Positions 3,473 to 15,875 of a stretch of 64,000 nt of DNA are shown here, piece by piece. This DNA is from Aequorivita iocasae. GTDB taxonomy: Bacteria; Bacteroidota; Bacteroidia; Flavobacteriales; Flavobacteriaceae. The translations under genes were made by a program, and so were the position numbers. Location: contig NZ_CP068439.1 of the NCBI RefSeq assembly GCF_016757735.1, positions 2,232,001 through 2,296,000 on the forward strand, written 5' to 3'. Under the pieces are notes generated by a model. It did no database searches, was not told the origin of the DNA, and worked only from the letters and a program-made list of their open reading frames with translations. Each line of letters starts with the position of its first letter. Within the stretch, counting starts at the first letter, position 1.

Positions 3473-3966
3473 TATAGAAATTCTTTTTTCATTTTACAAC
3501 GGTCTATAGAGCCTTTGGCGCGTTCCAATACACCTTTGTCCAAGGTGTCCATGGCGCATTTTTTATAGTATTCAATCGCTTCGTCCAATTTTCCCTGTTG
3601 TTCATACATAATTGCGTATTCGTTGTAGATGGTGGATTTTGTAATGCCGGGAATATTTATGGCGGTGTCTAGAAGCTCTTTTAATTCATCATATTTTCCA
3701 AGAGTAGAGAGCAGTACGGAATAGTTGTAATAAACAGGCGGATACATGGGGCTTTTTTCTAAACACAACTTGTATAGCGTTTCTCCTTTGTCAAACTCCT
3801 TGAATTTTACCTCATAAAGGTAGCCTAAGTGATTATAGGCTTTTCCGAAGTTTGGGTCCATATCAATTATTTTTTCAAGCTTGTTTGTGGCTTCATCATA
3901 AGCTCCATTTTTTATATCTGTGTTTGCTTGATTTAGTAATTCCTCAAGTTTGGTGAGATGGTCCAT
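3472..3966 (-). CDS. Tetratricopeptide-repeat protein
   Basis: A 164-residue protein without signal peptide, made of about three to four TPR units (for example [20 protein letters not shown] near 47-66 and a unit at 117-136 with [20 protein letters not shown]). TPRs make protein-protein scaffolds; the specific partner is unknown. It is the first gene of a two-gene unit with trmD (TAATG junction). Confidence 0.85.
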
Positions 3967-5185: not shown

Positions 5186-5298
5186 AGGTTGCGCAAATGT
5201 TTTTAACAAATTTGATTGAAACCTCAGAAATTATCAGTTAATGAACTCATAAAAATACAAAGGGTTTTTAGGTGCATGCAGGGCAGGCACTTTAAAGT

Positions 5299-5356
5299 AG
5301 GAAAAATCCTGCGTAATAAAAGGGGGATTTCCCCCTTAAAAATCAGGATTTTTCCT
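5299..5356. repeat. Nested perfect palindrome upstream of an unknown gene
   Basis: Outer arms AGGAAAAATCCTG (5299-5311) and CAGGATTTTTCCT (5344-5356) are perfect 13-bp complements. Inside sits a second perfect hairpin, AAGGGGG (5320-5326) and CCCCCTT (5331-5337) with a 4-base loop. There is no T-run typical of a terminator immediately after it. It lies 60 bases before the start of the 5417 gene and could be a leader RNA structure or a protein binding site. Confidence 0.7.
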
Positions 5357-5416
5357 CTTGACACATATTATTTTATTTAAAAAATTGCAACAGTATTAAT
5401 TTTAAAACAAGAACGT

Positions 5417-5905
5417 ATGAGCAACACAAATCAAAACCTACTGAACCAGGTAATTGACGCAAACGTCATGGCAACTATCATGGAAAGTCTTGCAACGGTA
5501 CAGGCCGCCCTGCCCGATAGCACCCTAACGCCAGAACAATGCAGCAGCCTAAACGCCATAAGCGTGGACAACAAGGTGTTTGCCGAAGAGGTGCTAAACG
5601 AGATGGACACCAACCCCCTTGCCGCCGTAAATGCCACTTACAACAGAGACTATCTGGCCAACGACCTGCAACTTTTTGAACAGGGAGAAACCATTGAAAC
5701 CCGGTTGATGGATCTTCTACAACGGGTTCGGGACTTAAAGCGCATGGCTGGGCATGAAAGCTATGGCATGGCCACGGGAGCCTACGGCATGATTGAGGTT
5801 ATGGCCCGCACGGGAGTACCGGGCGCACAGGCAAGCTATGATAGGCTTAAGGTACGCTATGCGGGGCAAGGAGGCAGAAACCCCACTCCGCCATTGCAAG
5901 AGTAA
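5417..5905 (+). CDS. Conserved small protein of unknown function
   Basis: 162 residues, no signal peptide or membrane segment, predominantly helical and acidic in the N-terminal half. It opens MSNTNQNLLNQVIDANVMAT and has a recognisable repeating style: LPDSTLTPEQCSSLNAISVDN, a central ETRLMDLLQRVRDLKRMAGHE and GAYGMIEVMARTGVPGAQA. I recall similar proteins in other Bacteroidota but know no function. Base composition is visibly richer in G and C (GCC, CCC, AAC codons) than flanking genes, which hints at transfer. It has its own terminator and sits directly before the 21-bp repeat array. Confidence 0.75.
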   Translation: MSNTNQNLLNQVIDANVMATIMESLATVQAALPDSTLTPEQCSSLNAISVDNKVFAEEVLNEMDTNPLAAVNATYNRDYLANDLQLFEQGETIETRLMDLLQRVRDLKRMAGHESYGMATGAYGMIEVMARTGVPGAQASYDRLKVRYAGQGGRNPTPPLQE

Positions 5906-5918
5906 AGGTCATGAAAAG

Positions 5919-5941
5919 CAGGTAGCAATACCTGTTTTTTT
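5919..5941 (+). terminator. Terminator of the 5417 gene
   Basis: CAGGT-AGCAAT-ACCTG followed by seven Ts, 14 bases after the stop codon. This separates the gene from the repeat array downstream. Confidence 0.75.
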
Positions 5942-5958
5942 GGAACTGTTAGCTTATT

Positions 5959-6189
5959 GTCTAATAAAATTATATAGGAGTCTAATTAAATAGGATAGTA
6001 GTCTAATTAAATATCATAAAAGACTAATTAAATATCATAATTGTCTAATTAAATATCATAATTGTCTAATTAAATATCATAACTGTCTAATTAAATATCA
6101 TAACTGTCTAATTAAATATCATAACTGTCTAATTAAACACCATAATAGTCTAATTAAATAGCATAACAGTCTAATTAATTTCTATAATT
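5959..6189 (+). repeat. Eleven 21-bp tandem repeats ending at a start codon
   Basis: Exactly 11 units of 21 bp (231 bp) with consensus GTCTAATTAAATATCATAAt(t/c)t. Units 4 to 8 are nearly identical; the outer ones are more diverged. Each carries the self-complementary core TAATTA. Two turns of B-DNA are about 21 bp, so all units face the same side of the helix. The last base of unit 11 is 6189 and the ATG of the next gene is 6190, leaving no space for a Shine-Dalgarno sequence outside the repeats. Likely an operator array or multi-promoter for the downstream regulator-like gene. Confidence 0.95.
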
Positions 6190-6549
6190 ATGAAAACAAA
6201 ATTCATCCAAAAGAACACCTCTCCTCATTTGGGAAAATTGGTTAAAGACCATATTACAAAGCATAAAGTATATAAAAGCTCGCTGTCCCGTTATATGGAG
6301 CGCCAACCTTCCACCATTGAGTATTACCTTAAAAAGCCCACCCTGCAAACAGCCATACTCTGGGAGTTGAGCACCTCCCTAAAGCACAACTTTTTTATGG
6401 ACCTTGCCGCCCAGCTGCCGGCAGACTTTACAACCAACGCCCCAGACCCAACCCTGCCTTTTAAGGAGCGCATTGCCGCGCTGGAGGAGGAGAATAAGAT
6501 ATTGACAACGAAGGTGGAAACGCTTATGGCGGTGGTGGGGAAGCGATAA
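6190..6549 (+). CDS. Small HTH-like protein with C-terminal coiled coil
   Basis: 119 residues. Residues 14-72 (LGKLVKDHITKHKVYKSSLS then RYMERQPSTIEYYLKKPTLQ) look like a degenerate XRE-type helix-turn-helix, followed by LWELSTSLKHNFFMDLAAQL, the place where lambda-repressor-like proteins have their fifth helix. Residues 92-117 (KERIAALEEENKILTTKVET) form a short leucine-zipper-like coiled coil, suggesting a dimer. It starts at the last base-pair of the 21-bp array, so autoregulation through the array is an attractive inference. No enzyme motif is seen. Confidence 0.7.
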   Translation: MKTKFIQKNTSPHLGKLVKDHITKHKVYKSSLSRYMERQPSTIEYYLKKPTLQTAILWELSTSLKHNFFMDLAAQLPADFTTNAPDPTLPFKERIAALEEENKILTTKVETLMAVVGKR

Positions 6550-6601
6550 ATTTATATATTAGCAGATACATGCGAAATAAACTGCATGTTGATATTTACT
6601 A

Positions 6602-6610
6602 GTTGCCAGC
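6602..6610 (+). repeat. Left boundary repeat of a cassette-like unit
   Basis: GTTGCCAGC here is the exact reverse complement of GCTGGCAAC at 7324-7332, directly after the lipoprotein stop codon. The pair brackets the single gene 6622-7320. A small stem ACATGC / GCATGT lies just upstream (about 6569-6590), as expected for a structured intergenic spacer. Confidence 0.6.
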
Positions 6611-6621
6611 AAGCTAAAAAA

Positions 6622-7320
6622 ATGAGAACACTAAAAATAATTTCTCTAATTTCTATATTTTACGTGGCTGTAGCTTGTAATTCTAAATTATCCCACCAAG
6701 AAATTTCAGATAAAGCAAAGAAAATAACACAAGTGATTAACGAAAAGAATATTGATGTTTTTCATAATTGGCAGTTTGAGTATCGTGGAAAAGGGGAAAT
6801 ATGGACTAAATCAATAAATGACAGAACTAATTTTACAGCGTACTATTTTAAAGAAAAGGATAGTACTTCTTTTATGATTTTTTCTCGTGATTTAAAAGGG
6901 TCGGAATATCCTTGTCTGGTAGAAATTGACACATCCCAATATCAATCCAACTTCTGGTTTACAAAAACAGAAAACGGACAAATAGAAATTAGTTCAACAA
7001 AAAAGGATGGAACTGACACAATAATCGGGAAAAACTACTCGGAGAAAGATGTCTTCGGAGAAAATAATCCTTTTAACGAATTAAATAAATTGAGTAATTT
7101 AAAAGATGAGATTGGAGTTGTAAGTATTTATAACAATCAAAGACTTGGAGATTTTACTCAATTTTATATAACTTATGAGGATGTTTTGACATACATTCCT
7201 GATAACCTAAACTTAAATCCAAAGTATAAAGATTTTTGGTTGGGAAATTTTCAAACAGGAAAAACAATTAATAAAAATTGGAATTTAAGGCATCTCGAAA
7301 ATCCAAAGCAAGGAGGATAA
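6622..7320 (+). CDS. Lipoprotein of unknown function in a cassette-like unit
   Basis: 232 residues. The start at 6622 is preferred over the earlier in-frame ATG at 6586 because it gives a clean lipoprotein signal (MRTLKIISLISIFYVAVAC, lipid cysteine at residue 19). The mature part is hydrophilic and rich in N, K and Y, with no family I recognise. It is much richer in A and T than the genes on both sides. It is bracketed by complementary 9-bp repeats (GTTGCCAGC / GCTGGCAAC) and followed by a palindromic spacer now split by an insertion sequence, which suggests that it arrived as a single-gene cassette. Confidence 0.65.
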   Translation: MRTLKIISLISIFYVAVACNSKLSHQEISDKAKKITQVINEKNIDVFHNWQFEYRGKGEIWTKSINDRTNFTAYYFKEKDSTSFMIFSRDLKGSEYPCLVEIDTSQYQSNFWFTKTENGQIEISSTKKDGTDTIIGKNYSEKDVFGENNPFNELNKLSNLKDEIGVVSIYNNQRLGDFTQFYITYEDVLTYIPDNLNLNPKYKDFWLGNFQTGKTINKNWNLRHLENPKQGG

Positions 7321-7384
7321 AGCCAGCTGGCAACAAAGGTAACCGTTGCACAACCCCTTAATTCCGTAAAAGCTGACCCCGTTT

Positions 7385-7411
7385 AAGCCGTTTTAAGCGG
7401 CTTTATTTTTT
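7385..7411 (+). terminator. Terminator at the left end of the insertion sequence
   Basis: AAGCCG / CGGCTT stem (7385-7403) followed by TATTTTTTG on the plus strand. It lies inside the element just past the transposase stop and would block rightward transcription coming from the lipoprotein gene, a known way for insertion sequences to avoid antisense or impinging transcription. Confidence 0.6.
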
Positions 7412-7413
7412 GT

Positions 7414-8979
7414 TCACGCTACAGCGTAGGCACTCTTCGGAAGTATTAAAAACGGGGCTATACATCTCTGAAGGTGCTTTTTCAGTGAAAACGTAAGCGC
7501 AAGGCAGATTGCCCCACTTTTTGACCGTTTCTGGACGAACTTTAGGTATTTTTTAAGGTTGTAGGCCATTGCCGAGAGGTGCATGCACTTGTTGGCCTGT
7601 GCCAGCCCAATGGTATTTACCTTGCCAAGCCCCATAAACTGGGTGAGCGTTCCGAAGACCGGTTCCACCGTACTCTGCCTTTTGCCCTTCATATACCTGC
7701 CCAGTGGGCTGCTTACACGGGCAATGTTACGTTCATATTCCTCTCGATATGCTGTTATGTTGATGCGTTTTTCGTGCGACTTGCCGATGCACTGGGCCTT
7801 GATGGGACAGCCCTTGCAATCGCTCCTCCTGGTGAAATAGTTATCCTTGAGCGTTCCCTTTTCCAGTTTCTGCTTGCGGAAGGTCACCTTTTTTCCCTGT
7901 GGGCACAGCCAGTAATTCCCGCCCTCTATATAGACAAAACCCTCCGGGCCACCTTTGTAGGTGCCGTGGGGCGGGATAAAGCTCTTGATGCCCTGCCTTT
8001 CAAGGAATGCATAGTTCTCGCCGCTGCTGTAGCCCGTGTCGGCCACGCAGTTTTCCCAGACCAGGCCTTGTTTCCCTAGCCGCCGTTTTAATCGCTGTAC
8101 AATGTCCGGCAATTGCTGGTTGTCCTTTCCATCCGCGTGGTAGGCCCTTATATCGCTGATCACGTGGTGGGCGGTGTCCACGCACAGCTGGCTCAGGTAG
8201 TTGAGCTTCCGTGCCTTGCCGGGCTTTACGCTGATGCGGGCATCGGGATCGGTGGGGCTGTAATGGGTCTTGTTGCTGGTATATTTACTTCCCTTGTTTC
8301 CCGCTCCGGGGCGCTGATCTTGGTCTTTGTTCCAGCGTTTGTTTCGTGAGGCAATGGCATTGAGTTCCTTCCCGTTGGCGGTAATAGTACGCTGGCCTTT
8401 ATCTGATCTATCGCCCTTGCTTTTGCGAAAGGGCTTTTCTTTATCCATTGCGCTTATGTGGCGAACCTTACGAAGATGTGATTCCAGCTCTTCTTCCGGA
8501 ACCTTCAGCTCCAGACTGTCCATAGAGGCATTGGCCTTGACCGGGGCGCTGTCCACCGTCTGGGTATGGCCGCTGACCATCCCCACATCCACGCAGAGGG
8601 TGAAGACCTTGGTGAACACTGCTTCAAAGACATCCTCGGGAAAGAGTTGCCGCGTACGGCTGATGGTAGAGTGCCAAGGGAGTTGCTCGTCTATCCCATA
8701 GCCCAAAAAGTAGAGGATATCCAGGCGCATCCCGCAATGTTCCACAAGCTTGCGGTCGCTGGTGATGTTCTCCAAATAACCAACCAGACAAAGCTTGAAA
8801 AATACGATCGGGTCGATGCTCTTTTGGCCGCTGTCGCCATAAAAGTCCCTTGTAAGTGCATATAAATAATTCAGGTCCAAAGCCGATTGTAGCCGACGGT
8901 AAAAATTGTGCTCCGGAACGCGCTCGCTCAAACGGAAATCGTTGAAGAGCTTTTCTTGGTAGATCTTTTTTCCTTGCAT
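7414..8979 (-). CDS. IS1182-family transposase
   Basis: 521 residues, DDE transposase. Family marks: an N-terminal domain with SERVPEHNFYRRLQSALDL and DPIVFFKLCLVGYLENITSD (DUF772-type), the first catalytic Asp region QTVDSAPVKANASMD, the second in WENCVADTGYSSGENYAFLE, a Cys cluster CKGCPIKAQC near 390, and the C-terminal STVEPVFGTLTQFMGLGKV giving the catalytic Glu. Full length with no frameshift, so it may be active. Base composition is richer in G and C than the neighbouring lipoprotein gene. Confidence 0.95.
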   Translation of the reverse strand: MQGKKIYQEKLFNDFRLSERVPEHNFYRRLQSALDLNYLYALTRDFYGDSGQKSIDPIVFFKLCLVGYLENITSDRKLVEHCGMRLDILYFLGYGIDEQLPWHSTISRTRQLFPEDVFEAVFTKVFTLCVDVGMVSGHTQTVDSAPVKANASMDSLELKVPEEELESHLRKVRHISAMDKEKPFRKSKGDRSDKGQRTITANGKELNAIASRNKRWNKDQDQRPGAGNKGSKYTSNKTHYSPTDPDARISVKPGKARKLNYLSQLCVDTAHHVISDIRAYHADGKDNQQLPDIVQRLKRRLGKQGLVWENCVADTGYSSGENYAFLERQGIKSFIPPHGTYKGGPEGFVYIEGGNYWLCPQGKKVTFRKQKLEKGTLKDNYFTRRSDCKGCPIKAQCIGKSHEKRINITAYREEYERNIARVSSPLGRYMKGKRQSTVEPVFGTLTQFMGLGKVNTIGLAQANKCMHLSAMAYNLKKYLKFVQKRSKSGAICLALTFSLKKHLQRCIAPFLILPKSAYAVA

Positions 8980-9025
8980 ACCATGAAATTACGGAAAATC
9001 CTTAACTTGTGCAACAGGCACAAAG

Positions 9026-9133
9026 TATATAAGCTATGGCTTGGGTCTGTCGTCACTTGGAAAATCCTACAGATTTTCCAAAACCAGTTTGCATCAAGAA
9101 ATGTCTGTGCCGAGACACGCCACAGCTCATATA
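9026..9133. repeat. Long imperfect palindrome, tail of the cassette-like unit
   Basis: TATATAAGCTATGGC (9026-9040) pairs at 13 of 15 positions with GCCACAGCTCATATA (9119-9133). Between them is a second perfect stem, TTGGAAAATC / GATTTTCCAA (9057-9081). If the insertion sequence and one ACAAAG are removed, this palindrome follows directly on GCTGGCAACAAAG at the end of the lipoprotein unit, so it is probably that unit's spacer. It ends with ACGTTAACGG, similar in style to the AGTTGCCAGC at the unit's start. Confidence 0.6.
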
Positions 9134-9170
9134 CATAAACGTTAACGGAAAACAACAGAGTTTGCAAAAA

Positions 9171-10807: not shown

Positions 10808-12196
10808 TTATCTGAAAATAAATGAATTTATGTTGCCGGCAGTATCCATAAAGGTCATTTTGATTGGTGAGCGATAATCACGCTGTGTCATAATTCGCTT
10901 TACATCATCAATGTCATTAACGGTCTCGTCATTAATTTTGGTAATTATGATTCCTTCTAATTTGTATTGTGCTATTTCTGGCGTAAGGGCGCGTGTAACC
11001 GTAACACCATTTTTAAGGCCCCGTTCCTTTAATTCTTCAGAAGAAGTGTTTTTCACCTCTAACCCCAGATCGTCAATGGAGAAAGTTTCCAATTTTACCA
11101 ACGTTACAGGTATCTTTCTTTCCCGTCCATTGCGAAGAATGGTTACTTCCACCACGTCATTTGGTCTTTTTGAACCCAAATACCCTGAGAGATCCGCAAA
11201 TTTTGAAACTTTATAACCATCCAATTGTTTTATAATATCGCCTTCTTTTATTCCAGCTTTATCTGCGCCGCTACCTTTTTCAATGCCACCTACAAAAACA
11301 CCTTCAGTGTCATTGATGCCATATTTTTCAACAATTTGTGGATTGATATTTCCTACCTGTATTCCTAAAATACCACGCTGCACGTTTCCGTATTCCAAAA
11401 TATCCTCAATCACTTTGCGCGCATTGTTTGAAGGAACAGCGAAGGAATACCCCACATAACTTCCCGTTTCCGAAGTAATGGCGGTATTTATGCCAATCAA
11501 TTCGCCACGGGTGTTGACCAAGGCACCACCGCTGTTTCCACGGTTTACGGCAGCGTCTGTTTGAATAAAGGATTGTGGGTTGCCGTCAAACTGGTTTAAA
11601 TCACGGGCTTTTGCGCTAATTATTCCAGCGGTAACCGTTGAGGTTAAGTTGAAAGGGTTCCCAACGGCAAGCACCCACTCGCCAATTTTTATATTGTTTG
11701 AATCGCCAAAAGGAATAAAGGGAAACTCTTCATCGCCATCAATTTTTACTAGGGCAATGTCGGTGTTTGGATCGGTGCCAATCAATTTTGCCGTATAGGT
11801 TTTGTTGTTGTTTAAGGTAACCTCAAGATTTGTAGCGTTGGCAATTACATGGTTGTTTGTAACAATATATCCATCGGGTGAAATGATTACACCGCTTCCG
11901 CTGCCTACACGGGCCCGGGGTTGACCGCCACCTTGAAAGTATTCAAAAATATTGGTGGGTTGTGTGCTAACACTCATGTTTTTAACATGCACTACTGCAT
12001 GTACTGTTTTTTCCGCAGCATCGGTAAAATCAGTATTCATTTCGGCAGCTGCAGCAGAAAGGTTAGTGGGAATAAAATTTGTACTTTGCTCGGGCTGGAA
12101 AGAAATGTGGTTTTTTGTCTCAAAAAGTTTGTAACCCCCAAGTGTAATGGCTCCGGCAAATAATGCTACTAGAAATAAACGGATCGTTTGCTTCAT
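10808..12196 (-). CDS. htrA: HtrA/DegP-type serine protease and chaperone
   Basis: Periplasmic quality-control protease. 462 residues: an N-terminal signal or anchor (IRLFLVALFAGAITLGGYKL), a trypsin-like domain with catalytic His116 (TNNHVI), Asp146 (NTDIALVK) and Ser222 (RGNSGGAL), a first PDZ domain near 270-360 (RGILGIQVGNINPQIVEKYG) and a shorter second PDZ-like region near 375-455 (LGLEVKN then GIIITKINDETVNDIDDVKR). Full family length. It is transcribed alone, divergently from dapF, with a TTG-N17-TATACTTG promoter about 155 bases upstream and a strong terminator. Confidence 0.95.
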   Translation of the reverse strand: MKQTIRLFLVALFAGAITLGGYKLFETKNHISFQPEQSTNFIPTNLSAAAAEMNTDFTDAAEKTVHAVVHVKNMSVSTQPTNIFEYFQGGGQPRARVGSGSGVIISPDGYIVTNNHVIANATNLEVTLNNNKTYTAKLIGTDPNTDIALVKIDGDEEFPFIPFGDSNNIKIGEWVLAVGNPFNLTSTVTAGIISAKARDLNQFDGNPQSFIQTDAAVNRGNSGGALVNTRGELIGINTAITSETGSYVGYSFAVPSNNARKVIEDILEYGNVQRGILGIQVGNINPQIVEKYGINDTEGVFVGGIEKGSGADKAGIKEGDIIKQLDGYKVSKFADLSGYLGSKRPNDVVEVTILRNGRERKIPVTLVKLETFSIDDLGLEVKNTSSEELKERGLKNGVTVTRALTPEIAQYKLEGIIITKINDETVNDIDDVKRIMTQRDYRSPIKMTFMDTAGNINSFIFR

Positions 12197-12354
12197 TTTT
12201 TAAAAATTTTAATTAATAATGCTTTAAAAAAATTCAAAAACTCTTTTTTCAAGTTTTCCATTTTTCTCTGTTTTAAGAGTTTCCGATCCTGGAAAGAACA
12301 AAGGAAGAAACCCTTTTTTTGAAGAGATAATTTTAATTACTTCAACAAATTTAA

Positions 12355-12382
12355 CAAGTATAGCTTGAAAATAGTATGCCAA
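12355..12382 (-). promoter_or_regulatory. Candidate promoter of htrA
   Basis: On the minus strand TTG (12382-12380), 17 bases, TATACTTG (12362-12355): one mismatch to TAnnTTTG. It would give an htrA leader of about 150 bases. Confidence 0.4.
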
Positions 12383-12443
12383 AAACACTGTTTTAACTTG
12401 CATTTAACGTCAAAACGGCAATGGTACTCGCAATGGCTTTTTA

Positions 12444-12451
12444 TATCTTTG
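12444..12451 (+). promoter_or_regulatory. -7 element of dapF, giving a near-leaderless mRNA
   Basis: TATCTTTG matches TAnnTTTG. The dapF ATG begins only 7 bases after it, so a transcript initiated at the usual distance would have few or no untranslated bases. Confidence 0.5.
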
Positions 12452-12458
12452 CGCAGTT

Positions 12459-13232
12459 ATGGAATTTACCTTTTACAAATATCAAGGCACGGGAAACGAC
12501 TTTGTGATCATCGATAATCGCGAAGAATTTTTTCCCAAAAAAAACACAGGCCTTGTGGCAAAAATCTGTGACCGTCGTTTTGGAGTGGGAGCTGATGGGC
12601 TGCTATTGCTGGAAAAGCATCCTTCGGCAGATTTTAAAATGGTTTACTATAACAGTGATGGAAATCTTAGTTCCATGTGCGGGAATGGCGGAAGGTGCAT
12701 TTCGCATTTTGCAAAGTACTTGGGAATTATTTCAGAAGAAGTAACTTTTGAAGCTGTTGATGGAATGCATGAGGCAACGGTGAAAAATGATTGGGTTTCT
12801 TTAAAAATGAATAACGTTGAAAATGTAAATATTTCTGAAGAATATATTTTTTTGAACACTGGATCACCGCATCATGTGGAAATGGTCTCTAATTTACAGG
12901 ATTTTGATGTGTTTACTTGCGGCAGAAACATTCGGAATAAAATCTACGGAAATGAAGGTGCAAATGTGAATTTTGTGGAACAAGATGATGCTGCCATTTT
13001 TTCAGTCCGAACATATGAACGCGGGGTGGAAAATGAAACTCTTTCCTGTGGCACAGGCGTAACTGCCGTTGCAATCGCAATGTTTGAAACCGGCAGAACT
13101 ACTGAAAATAAAGTACTGCTGAAAACCCCGGGCGGCCAGTTACAGGTTCGTTTTGATAAAATTGGCAATGGCTATAAAAATGTGTATTTGGAAGGGCCGG
13201 CAACGCAAGTTTTTAAAGGAATCTGGAAATGA
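12459..13232 (+). CDS. dapF: Diaminopimelate epimerase
   Basis: Interconverts LL- and meso-diaminopimelate for lysine and peptidoglycan synthesis, without cofactor. 257 residues with both halves of the pseudo-symmetric fold: catalytic Cys74 in SMCGNGGRC and Cys197 in TLSCGTGVTA, plus the N-terminal YQGTGNDFVIIDN and the GADGLLLL region. The stop overlaps the start of the GNAT gene (ATGA). Another gene of the same pathway, dapB, is in this window at 36961. Confidence 0.97.
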   Translation: MEFTFYKYQGTGNDFVIIDNREEFFPKKNTGLVAKICDRRFGVGADGLLLLEKHPSADFKMVYYNSDGNLSSMCGNGGRCISHFAKYLGIISEEVTFEAVDGMHEATVKNDWVSLKMNNVENVNISEEYIFLNTGSPHHVEMVSNLQDFDVFTCGRNIRNKIYGNEGANVNFVEQDDAAIFSVRTYERGVENETLSCGTGVTAVAIAMFETGRTTENKVLLKTPGGQLQVRFDKIGNGYKNVYLEGPATQVFKGIWK

Positions 13233-13801
13233 TTACATTAAAAGGAGAACATATTTTTTTACGTGCCTTGGAACCTTCCGATTTGGATTTTCTATATAAT
13301 CTGGAGAATGATGAAACCCTTTGGGAAGTAAGCAATACCACCACACCCTATTCCAAATATATTTTGAAACAATACCTTGAAAACAGCCATCGCGATATTT
13401 ATGATGTAAAGCAATTACGATTAGTGATTTGCAAAAATGACGACGAAGCGGCTGTGGGCTTTATAGATCTTTTCGAGTTTGACCCCAAAAACAAAAGGGT
13501 AGGGGTTGGGATCGTTATTTTTTCTGAAAAAGAAAAAAGAAAAGGGCATGCTTCGGAAGCATTAAAACTAACCTGCGATTATGCTTTTAAACATTTGAAC
13601 GTACACCAAATATTTGCTGGAATAACAACCGAAAACGAAGGAAGCATCAAACTTTTTGAAAAAGCTGGTTTTGAAAAAAGCGGCATTAAAAAAGACTGGG
13701 TTTTTTCTGAAGGAAAATACAAATCTGAATACTTTTATCAATTAATTCCAAATTCCAAATTCCAAATTCCAAATTCCAAATCCCAAATCCCTAATTCCTA
13801 A
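13229..13801 (+). CDS. GNAT-family N-acetyltransferase, RimJ-like
   Basis: 190 residues; overlaps dapF by 4 bases (ATGA). The GNAT fold is seen in FLRALEPSDLDFLYNLEND, the acetyl-CoA binding stretch GIVIFSEKEKRKGHASEALK (about 93-112) and NEGSIKLFEKAGFEKSGIKK. Substrate unknown; the best general match is the RimJ/SpeG-type group. The last ~16 residues (IPNSKFQIPNSKSQIPNS) are encoded by a short tandem DNA repeat and look like a recent addition after the domain ended near residue 172. Confidence 0.88.
   Translation: MITLKGEHIFLRALEPSDLDFLYNLENDETLWEVSNTTTPYSKYILKQYLENSHRDIYDVKQLRLVICKNDDEAAVGFIDLFEFDPKNKRVGVGIVIFSEKEKRKGHASEALKLTCDYAFKHLNVHQIFAGITTENEGSIKLFEKAGFEKSGIKKDWVFSEGKYKSEYFYQLIPNSKFQIPNSKSQIPNS
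13742..13799 (+). repeat. AATTCCA-type tandem repeat encoding a protein tail
   Basis: Runs of (A)ATTCCAA / ATCCCAA with a 7 to 8 base rhythm occupy the 3' end of the GNAT gene. A similar motif appears as an inverted pair at about 34538-34595, so it may be a dispersed element. Confidence 0.65.
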
Positions 13802-13807
13802 ATTAAA

Positions 13808-14864: not shown

Positions 14865-15875
14865 CTAAAGTTTATCTGCTATAATTCTTTTTTCGCGATT
14901 GGCTATCTCCCAGGCGGTATAAAAAATTAGCCGGGCGCGTTTCTCCATTAAATCATATTCTATTTTATCTGGAGTGTCGGTAATTTTATGGTAATCTTCG
15001 TGCACTCCATTAAAATAAAAAATAATAGGAACATTGTTCTTCGCAAAATTATAGTGATCGCTTCGGTAATAGAAACGGTTGGGATCGTTGGGGTCATCAT
15101 ATTTATAATCTAGCTCTAGTTGGGTATATTTTTCATTTACTTCAGAAGAGACATCCTGCAGCTCCTGGCTCAGTTTATTGCTTCCTATGAGATAAATATA
15201 GTTTGGGCTATCTTTTTTTTCTGGATCAATTCTTCCAATCATATCTATATTCAAGTTACAAACTGTATTTTCCAAAGGAAACAGAGGGTTTTCAGTATAA
15301 TATCTGGAACCATACAGACCAATTTCCTCTCCCGTTACGTGAAGAAAAAGGATGGAGCGTTTGGGTCCATTGCCATCTTTAACAGCTTTTTGAAAGGCCT
15401 GGGCTATTTCCAAAATTGCAACCGTTCCGCTTCCATCATCATCTGCACCGTTGAAAACATTGCCTTTGCTATCCATCCCAACGTGATCTAAATGGGCAGA
15501 GATTACAATAATTTCGTCGGGTTTTTCTGAACCTTTAATAAAAGCTACTACGTTTTCGGAAGATTTTGGATCTTTTCTTCCTTCAAAATAACTTTGGGGA
15601 ATATTTTGATAATAATTGTTCTTTTCAATGGGAGATTCTATTCCTTCATCCATATAGAAATTACGGATGTATTCGGCAGCTAATTTTTGCCCCTTGGTTC
15701 CCGTCATACGTCCTTCCATGGCATCACCTGCATAAACATATAAATGCTTTTGAAGGTCTTCGGCGGTTATGGTTTTGGCATACGCTACATTGTCTTTTTT
15801 CTGAGCAGTTGCATTTTGGGCAGAATTGCACGAGAATACGATGGATGAAAAAATCGCGAAAAATAATACTTTCAT
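14865..15875 (-). CDS. M28-family zinc metallopeptidase, lipoprotein
   Basis: Exported aminopeptidase-type enzyme with two metal ions. The frame is open to 15983, but the ATG at 15875 gives a clean lipoprotein signal (MKVLFFAIFSSIVFSC) and is chosen. About 336 residues. Metal ligands are visible in SAHLDHVGM, NGADDDGSGTVA, VTGEEIGLYGSRYY, NIDMIGR and RSDHYNFAK. The fold region starts near residue 80 after a DAMEGRMTGTKG linker typical of flavobacterial M28 enzymes. Converges on mltG with only 13 bases between the stops. Confidence 0.93.
   Translation of the reverse strand: MKVLFFAIFSSIVFSCNSAQNATAQKKDNVAYAKTITAEDLQKHLYVYAGDAMEGRMTGTKGQKLAAEYIRNFYMDEGIESPIEKNNYYQNIPQSYFEGRKDPKSSENVVAFIKGSEKPDEIIVISAHLDHVGMDSKGNVFNGADDDGSGTVAILEIAQAFQKAVKDGNGPKRSILFLHVTGEEIGLYGSRYYTENPLFPLENTVCNLNIDMIGRIDPEKKDSPNYIYLIGSNKLSQELQDVSSEVNEKYTQLELDYKYDDPNDPNRFYYRSDHYNFAKNNVPIIFYFNGVHEDYHKITDTPDKIEYDLMEKRARLIFYTAWEIANREKRIIADKL

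Follow-up and report, generated by a model that had tools for sequence, protein, structure and literature searches.

Organisation of the locus

The window, which is the whole stretch of 64,000 nucleotides analysed here, lies in the 3.35 Mb, single-contig genome of Aequorivita iocasae. Between an AsmA-like gene and a GAPDH-like gene, names that we assign to these flanks from their sequence, it carries a gene A, a tandem array and a gene B, followed by an attI-like leader and a cassette. The features are as follows.

5417..5905, + strand: gene A, 162 aa, all-helical model, unnamed family
5916..5941, + strand: terminator-like hairpin and T-run between A and the array
5959..6189, no strand: array of 11 x 21 bp, consensus GTCTAATTAAATATCATAAtt, from TRF and the pattern scan
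6190..6549, + strand: gene B, 119 aa, XRE-like HTH and long helix 89-116, from the ORF, AF2 and Foldseek
6380..6557, + strand: block conserved at the DNA level in relatives, from the B tail to just beyond the stop
6555..6562, + strand: TATATTAG, candidate cassette promoter, one base off the Bacteroidetes -7 consensus TAnnTTTG
6568..6601, + strand: attI-like leader, 32 of 34 bases identical to the site directly 3' of the G024 recombinase gene
6602..7334, + strand: first cassette, complementary ends GTTGCCAGC / GCTGGCAAC
6622..7320, + strand: cassette ORF, lipoprotein-like by eye, starting at an internal ATG of the 6586-7320 ORF
7339..9021, - strand: IS inside the attC-like site, with a transposase that we take to be IS1182-type; 4-bp duplication AAAG (7335-7338, 9022-9025)
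9022..9147, + strand: rest of the attC-like site, stem TATATAAGCTATGGC / GCCACAGCTCATATA

Of 19 A-B loci, 14 have a terminator-like hairpin separating A from the array, while after B a hairpin was seen at 1 of 28 loci, namely the window itself, where it is weak. Scans of the AT-rich window for terminators and for sigma-70-like promoters stay at shuffle level. Many relatives carry a promoter-like TATATTTG after the B stop, the place of TATATTAG in the window. The -7 consensus of Bacteroidetes is TAnnTTTG, and no exact copy of it occurs on either strand of 5200-6700.

The array in the window

The array measures 231 bp (5959-6189), that is 11 units of 21 bp, and the next base is the A of the ATG at 6190, exactly as the first-pass annotation had read it. 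On the window TRF reports period 21, 10.5 copies and 89% matches over 5959-6178, and a window scan with the unit pattern (at most 3 mismatches) gives 9 matches where 0.04 are expected, a number reached by 0 of 100 shuffles. Both outer units are degenerate, the first being GTCTAATAAAATTATATAGGA and the last GTCTAATTAATTTCTATAATT, hence the clean portion of the array stops 21 bp short of the ATG. The window unit has no dyad symmetry (p 0.54). In the rest of its own genome the unit pattern finds 14 matches and the reversed pattern also 14; on this lack of enrichment a global regulon was rejected.

The first-pass annotation had suggested that the copy number of the array could vary, and it does so between sister modules: the one in Aequorivita sp. 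SP75 (L002/L121), with a B that is 93% identical, has 10 units instead of 11. In SP75 the window-type unit and B thus occur together at a locus other than that of the window (L043/L121).

Simple tandem repeats of 7 bp (AATTCCA and others) occur at 13744-13804 of the window and form a class separate from the 21-bp arrays. They are also found in relatives upstream of smpB and other genes, where what had looked like 21-bp arrays, at smpB and several further genes, proved to be such 7-bp repeats.

Gene B and its family

The AF2 model of B (mean pLDDT 83.4, HTH blocks above 90) places helices at residues 14-24, 29-36, 40-48, 54-64 and 68-74, the five-helix fold of an XRE-type HTH regulator, and ends in a 28-residue tail helix (89-116) that in the model looks like a coiled coil. 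An HTH-like head and a zipper-like tail had been proposed from the letters alone, and AF2 and Foldseek agree in giving the 119-residue protein a DNA-binding fold. Foldseek returns XRE regulators, C.Esp1396I, C.BclI and HipB with a probability of ~1.0; for these matches TMt is at most 0.70, TMq 0.40-0.47 and the best E 0.02, none reaching E 0.001. No Pfam or NCBIfam family matches B over its cut-off, the only matches being Chibby (E 0.022) and DVU0298_fam (E 0.084) respectively, both below it.

Matches to B were found in 22 of 148 genomes, comprising the own genome (4 copies), 17 of 27 same-genus genomes (with G011 counted through a tail fragment only) and 4 of other genera. The order-level sample gave matches in 44 of 395 genomes, many solely via weak HTH relatives, and the phylum sample in 8 of 395 at 1e-8. 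Halomarinibacterium sedimenti has five copies. Across the family, sequence variation is concentrated in the DNA-binding half, and the tail is conserved, as in HNFFxDLAAQLP. In L152 the end of B is seemingly duplicated just 3' of its stop at 5312.

We considered whether the module could be a partition or anchoring device of the KfrA or pSK1 Par kind, moved to chromosomal loci; pSK1 Par we take as a parallel for an HTH and coiled coil acting on a repeat centromere. The HTH head with its long tail helix and the repeats before the protein's own gene are in keeping with this, and KfrA of RA3 is, in the part of the source at hand, an auto-regulator with five 9-bp iterations at its promoter that forms filaments (PMC7821693). 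However, searches of 72,556 plasmid and 50,697 phage records gave no match to B, and those of viral contigs none that was confirmed, so that a plasmid, phage or viral origin was rejected; moreover the module is without an NTPase and reaches several copies per chromosome. Such a device is thus improbable.

Arrays upstream of B homologues

The first-pass annotation had suggested looking for arrays of shared period before the homologues of B. A 20-22-bp array lies within 290 bp upstream in 49 of 52 intact B loci, chosen by hand as intact genes with upstream DNA, and homologues regularly lacking an array, which would have spoken against the proposal, were not what we found. The primary period is 20-22 bp upstream of B in 48 of the 52, compared to 17 of 466 mechanically taken control ORFs, one of these 17 being a gene A. 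The three loci that fall outside the 49 are L095 with a 43-bp period, L098 with a weak 21/42-bp signal and L104 with nothing above shuffles. Omitted from the 52 were broken or partial copies (L015, L016, L021, L027, L030, the L039 remnants, L141, L144, L145), near-duplicate records, L151 (no upstream DNA), further order-level copies and, as weak relatives, L022 and L153 (neither has an array) and L106-L120. The broken copy L016 does have an array; among weak HTH relatives 0 of 15 show a 21/22-bp signal above the shuffle 95% level.

B arrays are typically ~10 units long, and 21 of 47 have dyad-symmetric units (p<0.05). Units are common to close relatives and unrelated between unrelated loci, and the period hardly changes. 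The array system occurs in many Bacteroidota with a fixed spacing and a mostly locus-specific sequence. The direct contact with the start codon holds in the window (gap 0 bp) but is not a rule, as the gap among the relatives of the 52-locus set is often 0-60 bp and at times larger. Three loci (L058, L086, L087) have B and an array without an adjoining A.

Open frames of heptapeptide repeats run through three arrays: L233 3546-3809 (reverse-complement coordinates), L042 7125-7358 (-) and L056 6265-6591. They are probably a by-product of the period of 21.

Two further explanations can be weighed here. According to the first, the array is an RNA-type array as in type III toxin-antitoxin systems, or a coding heptapeptide repeat, for which one can cite that 21 is a multiple of 3, the open frames in L233, L042 and L056, and the position of the repeats before a gene. 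But arrays of 22 bp and 43 bp exist (L006, L026, L103, L152, L095) and break the frame, and Rfam has no match in the three loci searched (L001, which is the window's module, L039 and L057). Type III toxin-antitoxin was rejected since the gene after the array encodes an HTH fold and not an RNase toxin, and either form of this explanation is scarcely credible. The second, a neutral minisatellite kept by replication slippage and without function, could account for the differing copy number of sister modules and has a parallel in the 7-bp simple repeats before several other genes at the examined loci. A 21/22-bp period with unrelated sequences in many genera, linked to A or B, is not what it would lead one to expect, nor is a unit that is not scattered over its own genome, and we regard it as very unlikely.

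Gene A and arrays without B

The array and the gene before it had been taken together as a possible undescribed module, a view that gains from the present data. Gene A belongs to an unnamed family. The window A matches nothing in Pfam, NCBIfam, PHROGs or PADLOC, four distant members match no Pfam or NCBIfam family over cut-off, and the A model finds no fold match in the PDB with E under 4. Two overlapping phylum samples contain the family in 19 of 247 genomes (at 1e-5) and 24 of 394 genomes (at 1e-8); no A was found on the plasmids searched. We found no description of the A-array-B module in the literature searched, which is no proof of absence.

Downstream of A, within 450 bp, a 20-23-bp array is present in 20 of 34 loci, whereas upstream it is present in 5 of 34 (three of the 34 gave a short or misframed A: L241, L253, L230). 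Only 2 of the 20 array-positive loci have B. The other 18 belong to the 32 A loci without recognised B; two of these arrays are weak, with about two units (L223, L244), and L233, L234 and L237 are striking. By the period test the remaining 14 of the 32 have no array, three of them with a short or misframed A. Hence the array is not simply the operator of B, and the earlier model of an operator for B alone did not hold. This argues that the array also serves some purpose linked to A, and no other observation weighs more heavily against an operator-only model. Among A-only loci, 9 of 13 have a terminator-like hairpin separating A from the array; in a tenth, L233, the hairpin lies inside the array. 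Dyad-symmetric units (p<0.05) were found in 10 of the 12 arrays tested, which were the clearer ones. The next mechanical ORF after an A-only array is convergent in 10 of 14, which speaks against the array being the promoter of that ORF.

All five of these observations (the downstream position, the arrays without recognised B, the hairpin, the dyads and the convergent neighbour) would be accommodated if the array were primarily the cis partner of A, a widespread A-terminator-array element working independently of B, for instance as a nucleoprotein or topological structure that needs exact helical phase, with B a later reader in some lineages. On the other hand, arrays also stand next to B with no neighbouring A, 14 of 32 A-only loci show no array, and A can be 91% identical while the array is replaced, so that A alone hardly reads the sequence. 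We consider this explanation somewhat less likely than the one that we prefer, in which the array serves B.

Joint replacement of array and HTH

The window locus is collinear on both sides in G017 and G022 and on the left in G005 and G013, for which the DNA examined yielded no right flank; in G005 gene A is absent at the window-type locus. Compared to G013, G017 and G022, the window shows 70-91% identity in A and 74-85% in the B tail while the HTH is only 32-43% identical. Between G000 and G017, at one locus, the values are 91% for A, 32% for the HTH and 83% for the B tail, and the array is replaced. With blastn no match at the window-type locus runs from the end of A into the middle portion of B. 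At one chromosomal locus, the array and the HTH paired with it have been replaced together.

Over five genomes and 10 pairs at that locus, the sole pair with similar HTHs (L004/L024, 67%) has a unit similarity of 0.81, and the remaining nine combine an HTH identity of 22-33% with a unit similarity of 0.49-0.67, the baseline over all pairs having a mean of 0.53 and a 95th percentile of 0.72. Among pairs with a tail identity of at least 0.75, unit similarity tracks HTH identity (rho 0.40 over 135 pairs that are not independent), which is only suggestive of an HTH effect at fixed tail identity. A Mantel test of HTH against unit gives p 0.001, the partial rho being 0.11 (HTH) and 0.13 (tail). HTH-specific co-variation was dropped as a proof because after correction the tail correlates equally, and since both explain unit similarity alike, shared descent is not separated from an effect of the HTH. 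There are also dissimilar HTHs with similar units, such as L094/L099 (37% and 0.88) and the window with L003 (33% and 0.74).

The attI-like leader, cassettes and recombinases

The first-pass annotation missed what follows B, the attI-like leader and the cassettes. In the window the leader also contains a weak 7-bp hairpin before T's, and in many relatives the leader after B ends in GTT. Among 27 hand-picked B leaders, 22 match, above the 99% level of shuffles, a site that adjoins a recombinase. When each is compared with the recombinase-linked site of its own genome, 4 of 17 exceed that level (L016, L039c, L047, L051) and the window leader stays below it (score 20, level 27); this mismatch counts against use of the attI in trans. 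The two sites of G013, one linked to B and the other to a recombinase, are identical but for one base in 44. The 27 leaders, like the 34 cassette sites below, were picked by hand, with remnants and a broken B among them; L054, L139 and sites such as L048, L052, L055, L076 and L084 are not in the leader comparison.

In many relatives a variable gene stands behind the B leader, and then attC-like hairpins. Complementary cassette ends of at least 9 nt are found at 19 of 34 sites compared to 8.9% of 1023 cross-locus pairs, and of at least 10 nt at 12 of 34 compared to 2.3%, where the matching word may lie away from the leader junction. The attC-like stems pair in 5 of 6 folded examples, that of L039 being the one that does not. 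As in integrons, cassettes occur whose R' and R'' ends are complementary and which have attC-like folds. The window cassette ORF (6622..7320) has no family match over cut-off in Pfam or NCBIfam.

There is no integrase gene beside the attI-like leader in the window module, and among the loci examined B adjoins a recombinase only in G001 and G014. G001 shows the classical divergent arrangement of a tyrosine recombinase with an attI-like site and cassettes, and A-array-B lies on the far side of the recombinase; in G014 the recombinase is directly 3' of B. Many other genomes show a recombinase and then at once an attI-like site and a cassette. Canonical IntI (TIGR02249 cut-off) was exceeded in 0 of 28 genus genomes, and the matches are split at about 182-238. 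As the same family is matched below cut-off in 14 of 14 control genomes, mere matches were disregarded. Three recombinases tested score 165-219 bits compared to the cut-off of 265 and are Xer/IntI-like; the genus matches skip the IntI-specific middle segment, and the solved IntI4 structure matches only residues 207-276 of the G001 recombinase. An identity as canonical integron integrases was rejected on these grounds, below cut-off and without the IntI insert. In Aequorivita and relatives A-array-B thus heads an integrase-less, integron-like platform, with the genus recombinase as its candidate enzyme.

Tyrosine recombinases occur in most same-genus genomes examined (L154 8929-10065, L155, L156, L158, L163, L172-L187), mostly preceding attI-like sites and cassettes in the same orientation, with G001 and G015 divergent. 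In A. antarctica L039, four B-tail remnants lie in one cassette region (3771-3920, 7808-8098, 10925-11074, 14873-15097), three of which clearly retain the promoter-like site and leader. L042 and L055 carry a second platform between two genes that we recognise as smpB and clpB; the genes behind B differ, with a ParE-like pair in L055. An IS has inserted at the same point, right after AAC of R'', in the window (7339-9021), L040 (423-2105) and L154 (~11220-12902). The three own-genome copies of the IS have 4-bp duplications AAAG, ATTG and AATG, the left junction is also found in L045, L077 and L079, and the IS1182-type element looks attC-targeting.

Proposed mechanism

Our preferred reading, to which we give a probability of about 0.4, is that the array is a phased row of binding sites for B, whose dimers would regulate B and perhaps the cassettes, with a private specificity for each platform. 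Regulation of B by its own product, as in the switch that the first-pass annotation proposed, would be part of this reading. Dimers of B, each with an XRE-type HTH and joined by the long tail helix, would read the units along one face of the DNA and coat the ~230-bp row. As in most A-B loci the hairpin closes A before the array and only the array precedes the ATG of B, it is the array, through its occupancy, that would set transcription of B. Acting with the promoter-like sequence at the end of B, it may also feed the captured cassettes behind the attI-like leader; terminators are rare after B (1 of 28 loci), so that read-through into the cassettes is possible, the case being weakest in the window. 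Each platform of a genome would own a private array/HTH pair, a specificity suggested by the joint replacement of array and HTH and by the lack of other sites in the genome. Gene A, too, may have a part in this.

On a wider scale, and this we hold to be doubtful, the module would be a widespread Bacteroidota locus tag, in which A, with or without B, keeps a row of ~10 sites of fixed geometry and free sequence; where B is present, array and HTH would be swapped as a block that serves as a private address, and in Flavobacteriaceae such tags would be the heads of integrase-less integrons, with an IntI-like recombinase that lacks the IntI insert acting on their attI in trans. If this is true, Flavobacteriaceae would possess an integron-like system of gene capture that has gone unrecognised, and an uncharacterised but widespread protein family would have a DNA partner of fixed geometry. 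It would also provide natural orthogonal regulator/operator pairs, with similar tails and swapped HTHs, in which the HTH-DNA code becomes directly testable.

Comparison with known systems

The C proteins of restriction-modification systems have operators before their own gene, with few sites. C.Esp1396I and C.BclI are small XRE proteins like B and among its best fold matches, but C proteins have no long tail helix and few operator sites, whereas here ~10 phased units stand together with A, an attI-like leader and cassettes. KfrA-type proteins, in the part of the source available, resemble B in their HTH head, coiled-coil tail and auto-regulation on operator repeats; they are plasmid-borne and use 9-bp iterations or an inverted repeat, in contrast to a chromosomal 21-bp array with a hypervariable HTH (PMC7821693).

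As far as the consulted part of its description goes, BrickBuilt of P. gingivalis is likewise an intergenic array of tandem units of about two helical turns, with reported promoter activity, but it is known from one species, with a 23-bp unit and a leader and tail with inverted-repeat ends, whereas the present arrays vary in sequence and have a linked gene (PMC4596501). A MITE of that kind was rejected, the window unit being confined to one array in its own genome and the sequences differing between unrelated loci. The TAACTGA repeats lie shortly upstream of start codons, as here, in five Bacteroidetes including an A. sublithincola strain, and unlike the 21-bp arrays have a 7-bp unit of one sequence, according to the section of the source at hand (PMC4679880); we take that strain to be an Aequorivita. 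They are another class, with three-unit runs in 8 of 28 genus genomes and none in the window genome. One such heptamer run, among others, is at G001 C1:1716974-1717036.

The likeness to integrons and CALIN, within the portions of the two sources used, lies in an attI-like site, cassettes with complementary ends and attC-like hairpins (PMC9024848, PMC8618304). Within the Bacteroidetes, the one complete integron that IntegronFinder 2.0 reported, in the part available, is that of Salinibacter ruber M1 (PMC9024848). Whereas integrons have intI at their head, and the recombinases tested here are without its specific middle segment, the place at the head of these cassettes is taken by A-array-B.
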